64,000 bases of DNA. Source: Methylomarinum sp. Ch1-1 (GTDB lineage: Bacteria > Pseudomonadota > Gammaproteobacteria > Methylococcales > Methylomonadaceae). A program made the translations under genes and the position numbers. Location of the stretch: the NCBI RefSeq assembly GCF_030717995.2, contig NZ_CP157743.1:3870501-3934500 (forward strand). Reading direction: 5' to 3'. A model generated the notes under the pieces. That model was not told where the DNA came from, searched no databases, and saw nothing but the letters and a program-made list of their open reading frames with translations. Every line of letters begins with the position of its first letter. The stretch's first letter is position 1. Shown here one piece after another: positions 12,299 to 47,857 of this stretch.

Positions 12299-12652
12299 AC
12301 ACTACTGTAGTTTGCTACCTGAGTAGATGCCCTCGGCAAGATGATCTTCAACTTTGCGTGAGGCGGTATTGGCTGGCATGAAGGAAACGTAATGCCGGCG
12401 CTGCCACGGTGAAAGCCGAGATAGCAAAAAGGCCACACCCTACTCCTTACCGTGTTAAACGATCTGAGTCTTTTTCTGAAAGTAGCAGTCGGTATTTATA
12501 CGGTCATGGCAAACAAGAGCAGACAAGGGTGGACGCTAGTATCTTTTTCTTCTTCCAAGGAGAAAAGTAATGCGCCCAAACCTTGTCTACGAACCATTCA
12601 ATAACAATGGGCAATTAAACTCATTAAATATCTAATTTTTTGGAGAACGGCA

Positions 12653-13096
12653 ATGACTTGGGATCAAATTAAAGACCAATCGGTAGCGCCAAAAGAGCAA
12701 GTAGGGGTGAATTGGAAAGTCGATCGAAGCAATACACTCGACCGAGCCACAGGGCAAAAGCGAGTGCCCATGAGAACATTCCTGGCACTTGGCATGATGG
12801 GACTTGTAGTCGTTCTCAATGGGTGCATGATCGTCGATTCGCCGATCAAAGGTGTTTTGGGAACCGAGGTTATATGGGGCGACATAGCGACCAGTGAATC
12901 CTCCACCCCCGCCGGTACCTTGAAGGAGGGAAAAGCCTGCGCGGAATCCATTCTGGGCTTGCTGGCGCGCGGCGACGCCAGTGTCCGTGCGGCAAAGGAA
13001 AATGGCAACATCAAAGAGGTCACTTCGGTAGATCACTCGGCGAGAAACTTGCTCAACGTTGTCGGCGAATGGTGCACCATAGTGAGAGGCCGCTAA
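12653..13096 (+). CDS. TRL-like lipoprotein with CsbD-like leader
   Basis: The start ATG at 12653 follows GGAGA with good spacing. The first residues MTWDQIKDQSVAPKEQ look like the start of a CsbD protein (compare MSWNQIEGNWKQ at 33904), not like a secretion signal. At residue 40 (ATG 12770) begins a normal lipoprotein signal, MRTFLALGMMGLVVVLNGC, followed by a mature part CMIVDSPIKGVLGTEVIWGD... typical of the TRL-like family (GxLGTEV...KxGKAC...ILGLLARGDASV). Two readings are possible: a long chimera, or internal translation from 12770 to give a ~108-residue outer-membrane lipoprotein. No good ribosome site precedes 12770. Function unknown. Confidence 0.75.
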   Translation: MTWDQIKDQSVAPKEQVGVNWKVDRSNTLDRATGQKRVPMRTFLALGMMGLVVVLNGCMIVDSPIKGVLGTEVIWGDIATSESSTPAGTLKEGKACAESILGLLARGDASVRAAKENGNIKEVTSVDHSARNLLNVVGEWCTIVRGR

Positions 13097-14261: not shown

Positions 14262-14354
14262 GATCTTGGCTAACTAAGGATACTTTCCATGGCTCTGGAT
14301 GCCGGCATGACGACATTTGCGCATAATGCCGACTGAGTGAATTGGGTAGATGGC

Positions 14355-15113
14355 ATGAACGAACGAGACGAATACGCATTGGTGATTCCTGCCTACAATG
14401 AAGCTGCCACCATCCGTAAGGTGGTACTGGCTGCCCTACGGCATCTCGGCAGGGTAATTGTAGTTGACGACGGCTCCAGCGATGGCACGTCGGAACAAGT
14501 CTCGGATTTGCCGGTAACGCTACTGCATCATCCCGAGAATCTGGGCAAGGCGGCGAGTTTGTTCAATGGCATGCAAACGGCATTACAACTCGGTGCAAAG
14601 GGCGTCGTGACAATGGATGCAGACGGTCAGCACGATCCGGCCGATATTCCAAGGTTATTAATGGCAGCGGATGCTCACCCAGACCGACTGGTGATCGGCT
14701 CGCGCCTGTGGAACCGTGAGGTGATACCAATTGCCCGCTACCGCGCCAACCGTTTCGCCAACTTCTGGATCGCCTGGGCTTCGGGCCAGACAGTTGAAGA
14801 TAGTCAGTCGGGATTCCGGGTGTATCCGGCGCAACTTTTCAGGCACTGCCGGTTCAAACCCAGCCGTGAACGGAGCTTCGTTTTCGAAAGCGAAATCATC
14901 ATTGAAGCCGCTCGGCACGGATTTCTATGCGCCTTTGTGCCGGTTCAGACGACGTATCCCGAAAATGCCCGGCTCAGTCATTTCCGCCCAGTGAAGGACA
15001 TTGCTCGTATCACCCGCATGGTGGCATGGCGTCTTTTTATTCGCGGTTTTTTTCTGCCTGGCTTATGGCGAAGCCTGAGTAGGAATCAAAGCCTAAAGCT
15101 GGGAAAATATTAG
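14355..15113 (+). CDS. Family-2 glycosyltransferase
   Basis: 252 residues from ATG 14355; a GTG at 14337 would add six. GT-A fold: LVIPAYNEAATIRKVVLAAL, VIVVDDGSSDGTSEQV, VVTMDADGQHDPADIPRLL (DxD metal site), GSRLW, and SGFRVYPAQLF. It lacks the long C-terminal membrane region of polyprenol transferases; a single C-terminal hydrophobic segment (LFIRGFFLPGLW) is present. It probably transfers a sugar to a lipid intermediate. The 3' part from about 14758 is duplicated downstream (15574-15650 and 17044-17325). Confidence 0.88.
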   Translation: MNERDEYALVIPAYNEAATIRKVVLAALRHLGRVIVVDDGSSDGTSEQVSDLPVTLLHHPENLGKAASLFNGMQTALQLGAKGVVTMDADGQHDPADIPRLLMAADAHPDRLVIGSRLWNREVIPIARYRANRFANFWIAWASGQTVEDSQSGFRVYPAQLFRHCRFKPSRERSFVFESEIIIEAARHGFLCAFVPVQTTYPENARLSHFRPVKDIARITRMVAWRLFIRGFFLPGLWRSLSRNQSLKLGKY

Positions 15114-15650: not shown

Positions 15651-17043
15651 GGCTCTCTAGGATTTCCCGTGGTAACCCCAATATCTAGTGTTCCGCAAAC
15701 AAGGTCCGGCGTCCCTGCACATCGAGCCAAATATGCTGAAACAATCGGCTCAGGTTATAAATACCGTAGCAGCGGCGCTTGATCACTTTGATTTTATTAT
15801 TCAACCCTTCAACAAACCCGCTGGTTTCACGCCGAATAAAATAGTTGGTGATGTGATCACGCCAGTTGTTTAGTGTGGTGACAAAAGACGTGAAACAATC
15901 CAATCCCAATTCCGTAATTCTGTCCAGCCACTGCGTTAACGCCTGTTCGGCCTGCGCTTTGGTCAGGTTCTGTTCAAAGAGACCGGTTAGGACTTCACGT
16001 TGAACATAGACCTCTTTCAGTACCGGTGCCTGCCGGAATAACGACAATAAAACGATTTGCTGTTCTTCGGTCAAGCGATTCCAAGGCTTTCGAAACGCCC
16101 ACATGGCGCCTTTCAGTTGAGCATACTCCGATTCCGGTAAGGTTTGTTTCAGTTGCTTCATTTCGGCTTTGCGCGCTTTATCGGCACAGTCACGATAATG
16201 TTTGGCGACATGAAAGCGGTCTACCACAACCTGAGCGTTGGGTAGGGTTTCTTGAGCGGCATTACAGTAACCTTCGTTCATATCGATGCAGACACGACGG
16301 ATGCTTTGGCATTGCCGAGGCGGCAGTGTCTTTAAAAAGGCCTTGACGGTTTCTTTTTTGCGATCCGGTAACACCGCCAAGAGATACTTTTCACGTTGCG
16401 CCGTCAGTCCGGACACGATGACGACAAAATCCTTATGGCCTTTCTTCAAGGCAATTTCATCAATTCCAATCAACTCTAAATCGGGCACTGTCGACCAGTC
16501 CACTTGGCGCTGAATATGCCGATCGAGGATGCCTTCAATACAACCGATGCTGAGATGCCGTTTCAGGCTGACGTCACTGAGCGTGCTATTGACCAACTCG
16601 CGTAAAATCCAATTCTCATAGGCTTTGGTATGCGGACTCTTGGGATCGTACCACTCGCAACGTTGCGTTGTCGTTGGCCCTTTGTCACAGTAGGGACATT
16701 GAAAACGCTTCGGCCGGATGCGAATCCAGACCGGTCGGTCAAAAATCGGCAGATGCCGTAGCGTAATCGCTTTGTCGTAACCGTGAAATTTGTCGATCGT
16801 CCGTCCGCAGTGACGACATACCGCCGTATCACGGGTACTGACAACAGTGATCACCAGACCCTTATCGGTTTGTTCGTATTTTTCGACGCTAACATTGGGC
16901 AAGTCTAACGGTATTTGTATCTGCGGTTGATTCATTGGCATTCAAAAAAAAGTCGTGTCGTTCTGGTATTTTACAAGAGGCTCCGGTTGCGGTCTTCTAA
17001 CATACTATATGTTGTGGTCTCCCACGGGAAATCCGGAAGAGCC
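15651..17043. mobile_element. Intact ISL3-family insertion sequence
   Basis: 1393 bp. Terminal repeats GGCTCTCTAGGATTTCCCGT... and (reverse complement of right end) GGCTCTTCCGGATTTCCCGT..., 22 bp with 3 mismatches. Flanked by a perfect 8-bp direct repeat CAACTTTT (15643-15650, 17044-17051), the duplication size expected for ISL3. The intact glycosyltransferase gene has this octamer once, which confirms the insertion. Confidence 0.95.
15685..16941 (-). CDS. tnp: ISL3-family transposase
   Basis: 418 residues, uninterrupted. N-terminal zinc-binding cysteines (CRHCG and, further on, CPYC) precede a DDE domain with IGIDEIALKKGHKDFVVIVS, VCIDMNEGYCNAAQETLP, VVDRFHVAKHYRDCADKAR and the C-terminal FVEGLNNKIKVIKRRCYG glutamate region. 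Length and motifs are complete, so it is probably active. It occupies most of the element. Confidence 0.95.
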   Translation of the reverse strand: MPMNQPQIQIPLDLPNVSVEKYEQTDKGLVITVVSTRDTAVCRHCGRTIDKFHGYDKAITLRHLPIFDRPVWIRIRPKRFQCPYCDKGPTTTQRCEWYDPKSPHTKAYENWILRELVNSTLSDVSLKRHLSIGCIEGILDRHIQRQVDWSTVPDLELIGIDEIALKKGHKDFVVIVSGLTAQREKYLLAVLPDRKKETVKAFLKTLPPRQCQSIRRVCIDMNEGYCNAAQETLPNAQVVVDRFHVAKHYRDCADKARKAEMKQLKQTLPESEYAQLKGAMWAFRKPWNRLTEEQQIVLLSLFRQAPVLKEVYVQREVLTGLFEQNLTKAQAEQALTQWLDRITELGLDCFTSFVTTLNNWRDHITNYFIRRETSGFVEGLNNKIKVIKRRCYGIYNLSRLFQHIWLDVQGRRTLFAEH

Positions 17044-17984
17044 CAACTTTTCAGGCACTGCCGGTTCAAACCCAGCCGTGAACAGAGCTTCGTTTTCGAA
17101 AGCGAAATCATCATTGAAGCCGCTCGGCACGGATTTCTATGCGCCTTTGTGCCGGTTCAGACGACGTATCCCGAAAATGCCCGGCTCAGTCATTTCCGCC
17201 CAGTGAAGGACATTGCTCGTATCACCCGCATGGTGGCATGGCGTCTTTTTATTCGCGGTTTTTTTCTGCCTGGCTTATGGCGAAGCCTGAGTAGGAATCA
17301 AAGCCTAAAGCTGGGAAAATATTAGCAAAGTATTGATGGGTGATGTGTTTTAAGAAGTAAATGTTTTAAGGGCTCTGATAATCCTCTAGCCAGCCTCCTC
17401 CAGCGCCGGTGCGTTACACTGGCGTTTGAGGAAAAACAAGAGGAGACTGACATGGCATTTTACTGCGGAATCGATTTGCATTCAAACAACCACGTTGTGG
17501 TCGTGATTGACGAGAACGACCAACGACTTGAAGAGCGGCGTATCGGTAATGATGTATCTCTAACCTTGTCGCTATTGGCGCCCTACCAGGACCGGCTAGT
17601 GGCTATTGCCGTTGAATCGACGTTTAACTGGTATTGGTTAGTGGATGGTTTACAGGCAGCAGGCTTCCGGGTTGAGCTAGTTAACCCGGCCGGGATCAAG
17701 CAATATGAAGGCTTAAAGTACACAGATGATCGTTAATGACGCTTTCTGGCTAGCCCATTTAATGCGCTTAGGGTTATTGAAAACCGGTTACATTTATCCG
17801 CGTGAACAACGAGCGATTCGGGATTTGTTACGACGACGTATGCAACTGGTCAGAACCGGTAGTCGTCAATTGATCTGTGTACTTCGCCAGATCTGGCGAA
17901 GTACCGGTATGCGGGTGAGTTGCAATCAGTTGAAGAAACCGGACGTGACCTTAGAGCTGCCTGATGAGGCCACGCAGTCATATC

Positions 17985-19935: not shown

Positions 19936-20121
19936 TTAATCTTCGTCCGAAATATCCTTGATATTTTCCTTGAGATCACCAAAGCCCTTGCGAACTTTGC
20001 CGACGTTCTTTTGGACATTGCCTTCGATCTCCATCTCCTTGTCATCCAGTATGACGCCGGCGGCTTCCTTGACTTTTCCTTTGGCTTCTTCAATACGGCC
20101 TTTTACTTGATCTTTGTTCAT
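19936..20121 (-). CDS. CsbD family stress protein (copy 1)
   Basis: 61 residues from MNKDQVKGRIEEAKGKVKEA; AGGAG lies 8 bp before the ATG. Small, highly charged CsbD-like protein (GRIEEAKGKVKEAAG...GNVQKNVGKVRKGFGD), predicted helical and soluble. The family is induced by general stress in many bacteria; its molecular role is unknown. A near-perfect stress motif lies 107 bp upstream. It is divergent from the PRC-barrel gene at 20468. A close paralogue lies at 33046-33222 in the same arrangement. Confidence 0.93.
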   Translation of the reverse strand: MNKDQVKGRIEEAKGKVKEAAGVILDDKEMEIEGNVQKNVGKVRKGFGDLKENIKDISDED

Positions 20122-20228
20122 ATGCTTCTCCTGGTGTGTTAGCCATGACCCATTGGCCATACCCAAAGCGAGAAAAGGTATTTTCTATCGCTCAAATGAA
20201 ACGGTACGCACAAAAATAGACAGGGTCG

Positions 20229-33045: not shown

Positions 33046-33222
33046 TTAGTCGTCTCCCTTGATATCTTCCTTGAGATCACTCAATCCTCCTTGCGCCTTG
33101 CCGACGTTTTTTTGAACTTTCCCTTCTAACTCCATACCTTTGCCGTCCAGTATCACGCCGGCAGCTTCCTTGACTTTACCTTTAGCCTCTTCGACTCGGC
33201 CTTTGATTTGATCTTTATTCAT
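33046..33222 (-). CDS. CsbD family stress protein (copy 2)
   Basis: 58 residues, MNKDQIKGRVEEAKGKVKEA... ending LKEDIKGDD, with GGAGG before the start. Close paralogue of copy 1 (19936-20121). Both upstream regions share a stress motif 107-112 bp before the ATG and blocks such as TTGAGCGAT and GGTCATGGCT. This indicates a duplicated locus, with the PRC-barrel partner decayed here. Confidence 0.93.
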   Translation of the reverse strand: MNKDQIKGRVEEAKGKVKEAAGVILDGKGMELEGKVQKNVGKAQGGLSDLKEDIKGDD

Positions 33223-33333
33223 GATTGCCTCCTGACAATTATTGAGCCATGACCGGATAGCCATAAATGAAGCAGTGAATGATGTTTCCCATCGCTCAAT
33301 AAAAAACAATACACTCAACATTGAATTCGGTCG

Positions 33334-33903: not shown

Positions 33904-34104
33904 ATGAGCTGGAATCAAATAGAAGGTAATTGGAAGCAATTCAAAGGTAAGGCTAAGGAGACATGGGGCGACTTGACCGATGATGAACTCGATCAAATCG
34001 CCGGCAAGCGCGATATACTCCTTGGCAAAATCCAAGAAAAATACGGGATCGCGCAAGACGAGGCCGAAAAGCGTGTCAAAGAATTTGAGGACTCGCTTGA
34101 TTGA
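33904..34104 (+). CDS. CsbD family protein (copy 3)
   Basis: 66 residues, MSWNQIEGNWKQFKGKAKET... the canonical CsbD form with WGDLTDDELDQIAGKRDILL and a charged C-terminus. AGAGGACAACAGAG precedes the start. Different subgroup from copies 1 and 2. It is followed at 30 bp by a small membrane protein, probably in the same transcript. Confidence 0.95.
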   Translation: MSWNQIEGNWKQFKGKAKETWGDLTDDELDQIAGKRDILLGKIQEKYGIAQDEAEKRVKEFEDSLD

Positions 34105-47044: not shown

Positions 47045-47857
47045 ATGACGAGTCAGGATGCTAACAGACAAAACCTCCTTCTCAACTTACTGCCCGCAGC
47101 CGTTTACGAACGCCTTGCCCCTCATCTAGAAGAGGTCGCGCTACCGCTCGGAGAAGTCATTTACGAGTCCAGCGACATTTTGAGTCACGCCTATTTCCCG
47201 ACAACCAACATCGTATCGTTGCTTTATGTCTTGGAAAATGGCGCGTCAGCCGAAATCGCCGTGGTCGGTAACGATGGCATGCTCGGCGTCGCCCTCTTCA
47301 TGGGTGGCGAAACCATGCCTAATCGGGCCGTCGTGCAAAGCGCAGGCCACAGCTACCGACTGCGGAAGCATTTGCTGCTGAAGGAGTTCGACCGCTCCGG
47401 GGGACGCCGTACCGGCGCATTGAATAATTTGTTGCTGCGCTATTCCCAGGCGCTGATTACCCAGATGGCACAGACGGCGGTCTGCAATCGCCATCATTCG
47501 GTGGATCAGCAACTTTGTCGCTGGCTACTACTCAGCCTAGACCGACTCTCATCGAACGAGTTAGCCATGACCCAGGAACTGATCGCCAATATGCTGGGCG
47601 TGCGCCGCGAAGGCGTCACCGAGGCCGCCATAAAATTGCAGAAAGCGGGCTTGATTCATTATTGCCGAGGCCGTATCACGGTGCTGGATCGGCCGGGATT
47701 GGAAGCGCGCGTCTGCGAGTGTTACCGCGTGGTTAAAATGGAATTCGATCGTCTGCTCCCCCCCCCCCACCCTGACACAGGGGGCGACCGGGCGCACTCG
47801 GACAGTTTCCATGTCACCGATATATTCCTGGCCACTCAGGGCTACCTCATTAAATGA
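47045..47857 (+). CDS. Crp/Fnr-family transcription regulator
   Basis: 270 residues from ATG 47045 (MTSQDANRQNLLLNLLPAAV); a TTG at 46991 would add 18. Cyclic-nucleotide-binding-like N-terminal domain (PLGEVIYESSDILSHAYFPT), but without the classic cAMP-binding Arg-Ser motif. C-terminal winged helix TQELIANMLGVRREGVTEAA, with recognition-helix arginine and glutamate at the usual places but Glu instead of the second Arg, so its site probably differs from CRP's. It ends in a tail LLPPPHPDTGGDR... after the domain. The tail contains an 11-bp C run (47758-47768). A stress motif lies in its upstream region. Confidence 0.9.
   Translation: MTSQDANRQNLLLNLLPAAVYERLAPHLEEVALPLGEVIYESSDILSHAYFPTTNIVSLLYVLENGASAEIAVVGNDGMLGVALFMGGETMPNRAVVQSAGHSYRLRKHLLLKEFDRSGGRRTGALNNLLLRYSQALITQMAQTAVCNRHHSVDQQLCRWLLLSLDRLSSNELAMTQELIANMLGVRREGVTEAAIKLQKAGLIHYCRGRITVLDRPGLEARVCECYRVVKMEFDRLLPPPHPDTGGDRAHSDSFHVTDIFLATQGYLIK

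Follow-up and report, generated by a model that had tools for sequence, protein, structure and literature searches.

A TRL-family lipoprotein gene with an N-terminal extension

The window, by which we mean the whole 64,000-nucleotide stretch of Methylomarinum sp. Ch1-1 DNA analysed here, contains a gene for a lipoprotein of the TRL family (Table 1). Its reading frame opens with an ATG directly preceded by TTTTTTGGAGAACGGCA and encodes 147 amino acids, the first 39 of which are hydrophilic and, as the initial annotation had described, stand ahead of a complete lipoprotein signal beginning at residue 40 (M40). The layout of a signal peptidase II signal (charged n-region, hydrophobic core and lipobox) is present on inspection of the alignments, the lipobox cysteine (Cys58) being encoded at 12824-12826 and the span from M40 to Cys58 comprising 19 residues. 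Behind the predicted signal and its lipobox LNGC lies the TRL domain, whose match to PF13146 (76.9 bits) exceeds the curated cut-off of 25 bits. PROSITE-type rules expect the cysteine of a lipoprotein signal within about the first 15-35 residues; the cysteine lies beyond this span when residues are counted from the ATG at 12653, and at residue 19 when they are counted from M40. Since the residue at +2 is Met and not Asp, the predicted destination of the TRL lipoprotein is probably the outer membrane.

At the upstream start, the pattern TTGGAGAAC-N4-ATGA occurs a single time in the 64 kb window (mean of 0.01 per shuffle, 100 shuffles), and a GGAG-type site before this start is retained in all 13 family carriers in the alignment. 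Structure modelling gave a poor result for the full-length protein (pLDDT 42) and a fair one when begun at M40 (pLDDT 67); the latter model had no match in the PDB at E <= 0.001 (best E 1.2), and a PDB sequence search gave no relative up to E 1.

Table 1. Coordinates and basis of the features discussed, in positions of the window.
Feature	Position	Strand	Basis or remark
TRL-family lipoprotein gene with N-terminal extension	12653..13096	+	147 codons plus stop; ORF list, Pfam PF13146, 15 close orthologues
Inverted repeat AATGGGC..ACTCATT with imperfect pairing in the window and better pairing in several relatives	12606..12625	+	5' untranslated; putative tie to the working of the gene
T-rich stretch and Shine-Dalgarno site (GGAGAAC) for the upstream start	12636..12652	+	sequence, alignment, single occurrence in the window
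39-codon N-terminal extension (leader), possible CsbD-derived segment	12653..12769	+	open in 14/15 orthologues; profile match to CsbD residues 1-37
M40, on or close to the start-codon position of leaderless TRL genes	12770..12772	+	ATG in 8/15 orthologues
Conventional lipoprotein signal: MRT, hydrophobic core, lipobox LNGC to Cys58	12770..12826	+	sequence, alignments
TRL domain PF13146, residues 76-146	12878..13090	+	Pfam, E 1.5e-21
CsbD genes above the Pfam cut-off	19954-20112, 33058-33213, 33913-34071		window

Distribution of the extension

Ten relatives came out of a scan of genome contigs, in records of Methylomonas lenta, several Methylobacter, Methylotuvimicrobium buryatense and a Methylococcaceae bacterium. 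The strains that carry the gene include Methylotuvimicrobium buryatense 5G and Methylobacter tundripaludum SV96, the latter without an ATG at the M40 position. When 237 genomes of the family were searched at E <= 1e-20, 13 matches were found, the window's own included, each with an ATG, a GGAG-type site and an open extension 5' of the conserved signal; the distribution is patchy, 224 of the 237 genomes having no match at this threshold. The order-wide search (311 genomes, E <= 1e-15) returned 16 matches, namely the same 13, G024, L125 and L127. G024 is a distant leaderless TRL protein (49% identity over query residues 75-146), and both remaining genes belong to a different family within the order. 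L125 carries an extension resembling that of L094 (MNYEQSE versus MNHEQSE), with an ATG and a ribosome site of its own, and L127 (G303) has three in-frame stops just upstream of an intact TRL frame that begins exactly at the residue-40 position. A search of a plasmid collection gave no match.

The extension, in frame and with an upstream ATG and its Shine-Dalgarno site, is carried by 14 of the 15 close orthologues (the window's gene among them) in several genera, L127 being the exception. Its length varies from 29 to 41 codons up to the R41 position in the 11 distinct genes; L085 and L086 form a near-identical pair, as do L092 and L093. Judged from these comparisons of sequence, the extension is a normal part of the TRL gene in this methanotroph clade, and is old and shared; it did not arise by a recent accident of this one genome. 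The initial annotation had envisaged, as the finding that would speak against its proposals, orthologues with the same leader as a normal, protein-level conserved part of the family; such is the leader in this clade, its residues being only loosely conserved. L127 lacks the extension and has an intact TRL frame, so that the extension appears dispensable, at least where M40 remains.

Upstream sequences and gene neighbourhood

The inverted repeat upstream of the gene takes the form AATGGGC-N6-GCYCATT about 27 bases 5' of the start in nine of the 10 aligned orthologues and nine of the 13 carriers, L085, L086 and L094 having been omitted from this alignment because the repeat is absent in them. 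Riboregulation by a 5' hairpin was considered and rejected: the minimum-energy fold has the hairpin in six of seven folded sequences, the window's own being the one without it, and z-scores range from -2.85 to 0.39. A possible weak hairpin covers the Shine-Dalgarno site.

All three CsbD genes of this genome that clear the Pfam cut-off fall within the one 64 kb window, about 7, 20 and 21 kb away from the TRL gene. In the regions of 3.7 to 20 kb examined around the TRL gene of 12 relatives, CsbD genes are present in four (L083, L084, L085 and L086), at about 1.5 kb in L083 and L084. The nearby CsbD genes inspected are of the other CsbD type, starting MNKDQ or MNEDQ, with the exception of the one at 33904. 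In L089, a CsbD gene survives as a remnant (12854-13048, minus strand) at a distance of about 2.5 kb from the TRL gene: its N-terminal half is gone, while the C-terminal half and the upstream motif are still there. Only a locally built model detected it.

The sequence GGTCATGGC stands about 30 bases 5' of MNKDQ-type CsbD starts (window 20139-20150 and 33243-33254, both on the minus strand), and a similar ATGGC copy lies a further 14 bases or so upstream; the same holds for several CsbD genes of relatives. At up to one mismatch the window has five matches to it against 1.43 expected, lying upstream of two CsbD genes and the TRL gene and, for one match (at 47561), inside another coding frame. 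A promoter shared with CsbD genes was considered and rejected. Of 13 carriers, 4 have a fitting motif no more than 250 bases from the TRL start, and its distance from the start is much greater than in CsbD genes.

Downstream of the TRL gene, an acyltransferase-like and then a glycosyltransferase-like motif occur in seven of 13 loci (window, L083, L084, L088, L089, L092 and L093); in L085, L086 and L087 this short-motif search found the glycosyltransferase motif alone, and in L090, L091 and L094 neither motif. In 7 of 13 loci there is also a polysaccharide-deacetylase-like motif on the upstream side, in divergent orientation. These three names express what we take the neighbours to be from the look of their sequences. 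The C-terminal part of the glycosyltransferase-like gene at 14337-15113 recurs nearly identically at 16915-17325, beyond a transposase-like gene (15685-16941, minus strand), as if duplicated with the insertion.

Selection on the extension

Substitution rates were compared by the NG86 method over the 11 distinct genes, a set from which the near-duplicates L086 and L093, and also L125 and L127, are absent. Of the 55 gene pairs, 53 were usable for leader residues 2-41 and gave a median dN/dS of 0.64; the hydrophobic core with the lipobox stood at 0.32 (52 pairs), and the mature part at 0.085 (all 55). With the codon positions of the 11 leaders differing little as well, the leader sequence is barely constrained. 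In a neutral simulation with substitutions only on a UPGMA tree, which ignored indels and whose outcome depends on the chosen tree and ancestor, 2 of 5000 runs ended with none of the 11 leaders interrupted by a stop, and 7.5 leaves were broken on average; the frame-broken L127 was found after the simulation and is hence outside its 11 leaders. The length differences among leaders are frame-preserving. An open frame with a loose sequence fits an n-region that has to be read through and in which the exact residues matter little.

Resemblance of the leader to CsbD proteins

The initial annotation had recognised a CsbD-like gene start, and the first codons are indeed CsbD-like, if over a short stretch. 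The sequence ATGANNTKGRAYCARATH occurs exactly twice in the window's genome, at the start of the TRL gene and at that of the CsbD gene at 33904-34104; over 13 genomes it has nine occurrences, comprising five TRL leaders, this one CsbD gene and three implausible gene starts. At E up to 10, the Pfam CsbD model matched neither the window protein nor any of five orthologues and three leaders taken by themselves, and the curated cut-off of PF05532 (40 bits) is reached by none of them. A leader profile searched at E up to 1 recovered no CsbD gene in 13 genomes, all of which have CsbD genes.

Profile-to-profile comparison gave a longer match. In hhalign, 10 leaders (the L094-type leader left out, and L125 never included) aligned without gaps, residues 1-37 to residues 1-37, with five MxW-type CsbD proteins (score 28.3, probability 84); none of 500 column permutations reached this score (maximum 17.6), and leaving out each of the 10 leaders in turn kept it at 26.9-30.4. 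Against all 27 CsbD proteins, which were drawn from the carriers' loci, the score was 24.4 (maximum of 500 permutations 18.6). The first residues contribute the bulk of the score, leader columns 1-12 alone scoring 19.3. When columns 1-7 were fixed, one in 200 permutations of the remainder attained the observed score, and columns 8-41 alone kept the same diagonal with a score of 11.8, which two of 200 permutations reached.

A consensus leader scored 12.2 bits on the five-protein CsbD model (0 of 5000 shuffles as high) and 7.2 bits on the 27-protein model (10 of 5000). Leaders were also scored singly on two CsbD models, with 1000 shuffles each, most but not all of which were scored. L021 alone stands clear (14.1 and 12.1 bits, equalled by no shuffle) and the other leaders are weaker or mixed, that of the window reaching 4.1 and 5.7 bits (15 of 938 and 5 of 974 shuffles as high) and those of L092 and L094 (L023 and L025, respectively, in this test) giving no CsbD signal. 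The 85 real N-termini in this test included the leaders themselves and so form no clean null, and a null of real protein families, with only two clusters, one being TRL itself and the other scoring 7.8, was too small for use.

The CsbD-like character noted initially has thus gained some backing from profiles and permutations, but the likeness of the first codons is short and there is no Pfam match; a CsbD ancestry of the leader is plausible rather than proven, the chances for and against being about equal. Not far short of an even chance is also what we would give to a long-signal protein whose extension arose from untranslated sequence or the start of an unrelated gene, its CsbD look being a chance match of the first six to seven residues. 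This reading differs from the explanation favoured below in the donor only, and the probabilities of the two overlap. The absence of a Pfam match, the concentration of the profile score in the first columns, the failure of the leader profile to recover any CsbD gene and a leader of the MN[HY]EQSE kind (L094) with no CsbD signal all suit an unrelated donor; the permutations, the diagonal kept by residues 8-41 and the presence of the start motif in both TRL leaders and a CsbD gene are harder to reconcile with it.

The original start codon

Thirteen leaderless TRL genes of other genera in the order (a fourteenth, incomplete at a contig end, was excluded) have a Shine-Dalgarno-like site at their start and the lipobox cysteine at residue 18-24, and the ten that were aligned with the family start within a few residues of M40. 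Because these genes and L127 begin at or near this position, M40 is likely to be the original start of the TRL gene. Its codon is ATG in eight of the 15 orthologues (window, L083, L084, L085, L086, L090, L125 and L127) and another in seven (AAT in L087, GTC in L088, ACG in L089, CTG in L091, ATC in L092 and L093, ATA in L094). A restart at 12770, on which the initial annotation had made normal export depend, is therefore no general requirement for making the protein, and the window sequence has no clear Shine-Dalgarno site before 12770.

These observations bear on a second alternative, in which the working lipoprotein of this genome starts at M40 and the upstream ATG and extension serve chiefly to control translation, being read by a share of the ribosomes. 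An ATG retained in eight orthologues at the start position of leaderless genes, the evident use of M40 by L127, the weak protein-level constraint on the leader and an AAGGA-like site before M40 in L125 would agree with such a start. We nevertheless regard it as unlikely: in addition to the lack of a clear Shine-Dalgarno site before 12770 in the window, the genes without ATG40 have a nearest downstream ATG, if any, that by eye leaves no charged n-region, and a leader not read into TRL would need no frame, yet the frame is kept.

Proposed origin and processing of the extended protein

The explanation that we favour, and hold to be rather probable, is an old in-frame 5' fusion that yielded a single polypeptide with an unusually long lipoprotein n-region and moved the start codon upstream, a CsbD/YjbJ-type gene being the best candidate for the donor. 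We infer a single origin, in which another gene would have contributed its 5' part (ribosome site and about 37 codons), joined in frame to the TRL start codon before these methanotroph lineages split; the old start M40 would then have become dispensable and been lost in several lineages. Full-length translation from the ATG at 12653 would give one polypeptide, the first 57 residues of which may act as one long lipoprotein signal, made of a hydrophilic n-region of about 41 residues, the hydrophobic core and the lipobox. The export route, processing and outer-membrane location that we infer follow general lipoprotein biogenesis: Sec export, lipid attachment at Cys58 and cleavage by signal peptidase II, which would cut off the whole extension, and transfer of the mature TRL lipoprotein, with its Met at +2, to the outer membrane by Lol transport.

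It is improbable that the extension instead blocks processing and leaves the protein fixed in the inner membrane, its tail in the cytoplasm; such a length is unusual for a lipoprotein signal, but the 13 aligned carriers show no variation in the lipobox cysteine or the residues that follow it, which suggests that lipidation is kept. Moreover, long Sec signals exist: autotransporters and two-partner secretion proteins have an extra N-terminal part before a normal signal, the whole exceeding 50 residues in some (PMC2805444), and the TRL extension need not, as had initially been supposed, stand in the way of export.

Still more doubtful is the idea that a CsbD-type cytoplasmic segment has been retained and delays TRL export or makes it conditional, for example under envelope or osmotic stress; if this were true, a fragment of a stress protein would form the n-region of a lipoprotein signal and have a role of its own before or after cleavage. 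A recent deletion of a CsbD gene in this genome that left its start fused to TRL and driving the lipoprotein, as the initial annotation had suggested from the CsbD-like first codons, would also suit the CsbD genes in the same region, but we reject it as scarcely credible because the extension is shared among orthologues of several genera, and three CsbD genes are still in the window.

The gene structure is real, conserved and mildly unusual. It indicates that a lipoprotein can keep a hydrophilic extension of about 30-40 residues before its signal across several genera; length rules of lipoprotein prediction would reject an extension of roughly this size. Under the favoured in-frame fusion, the steps by which a gene acquires a new start codon from a 5' fusion, and afterwards gives up the old one, seem to be traceable at this locus.

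Comparison with known systems

Among the titles and opening lines of abstracts that were searched, no description of a CsbD-TRL fusion was found, and a literature search for TRL-like protein, TRL-like family and PF13146 found no paper. The long signals of autotransporters and two-partner secretion proteins (PMC2805444) likewise place an extra part before a normal signal; the TRL signal instead ends in a lipobox, and the two are likened by layout and not by sequence. With the CsbD/YjbJ family (PF05532) the leader shares a gapless alignment to CsbD residues 1-37 in the profile comparison, but it has no Pfam match, lacks the second half of the domain and continues into a signal peptide. With the TRL-like family (PF13146) the protein shares the domain over residues 76-146 and the lipoprotein layout; the 13 relatives from other parts of the order begin at the signal itself, whereas this clade adds the extension.
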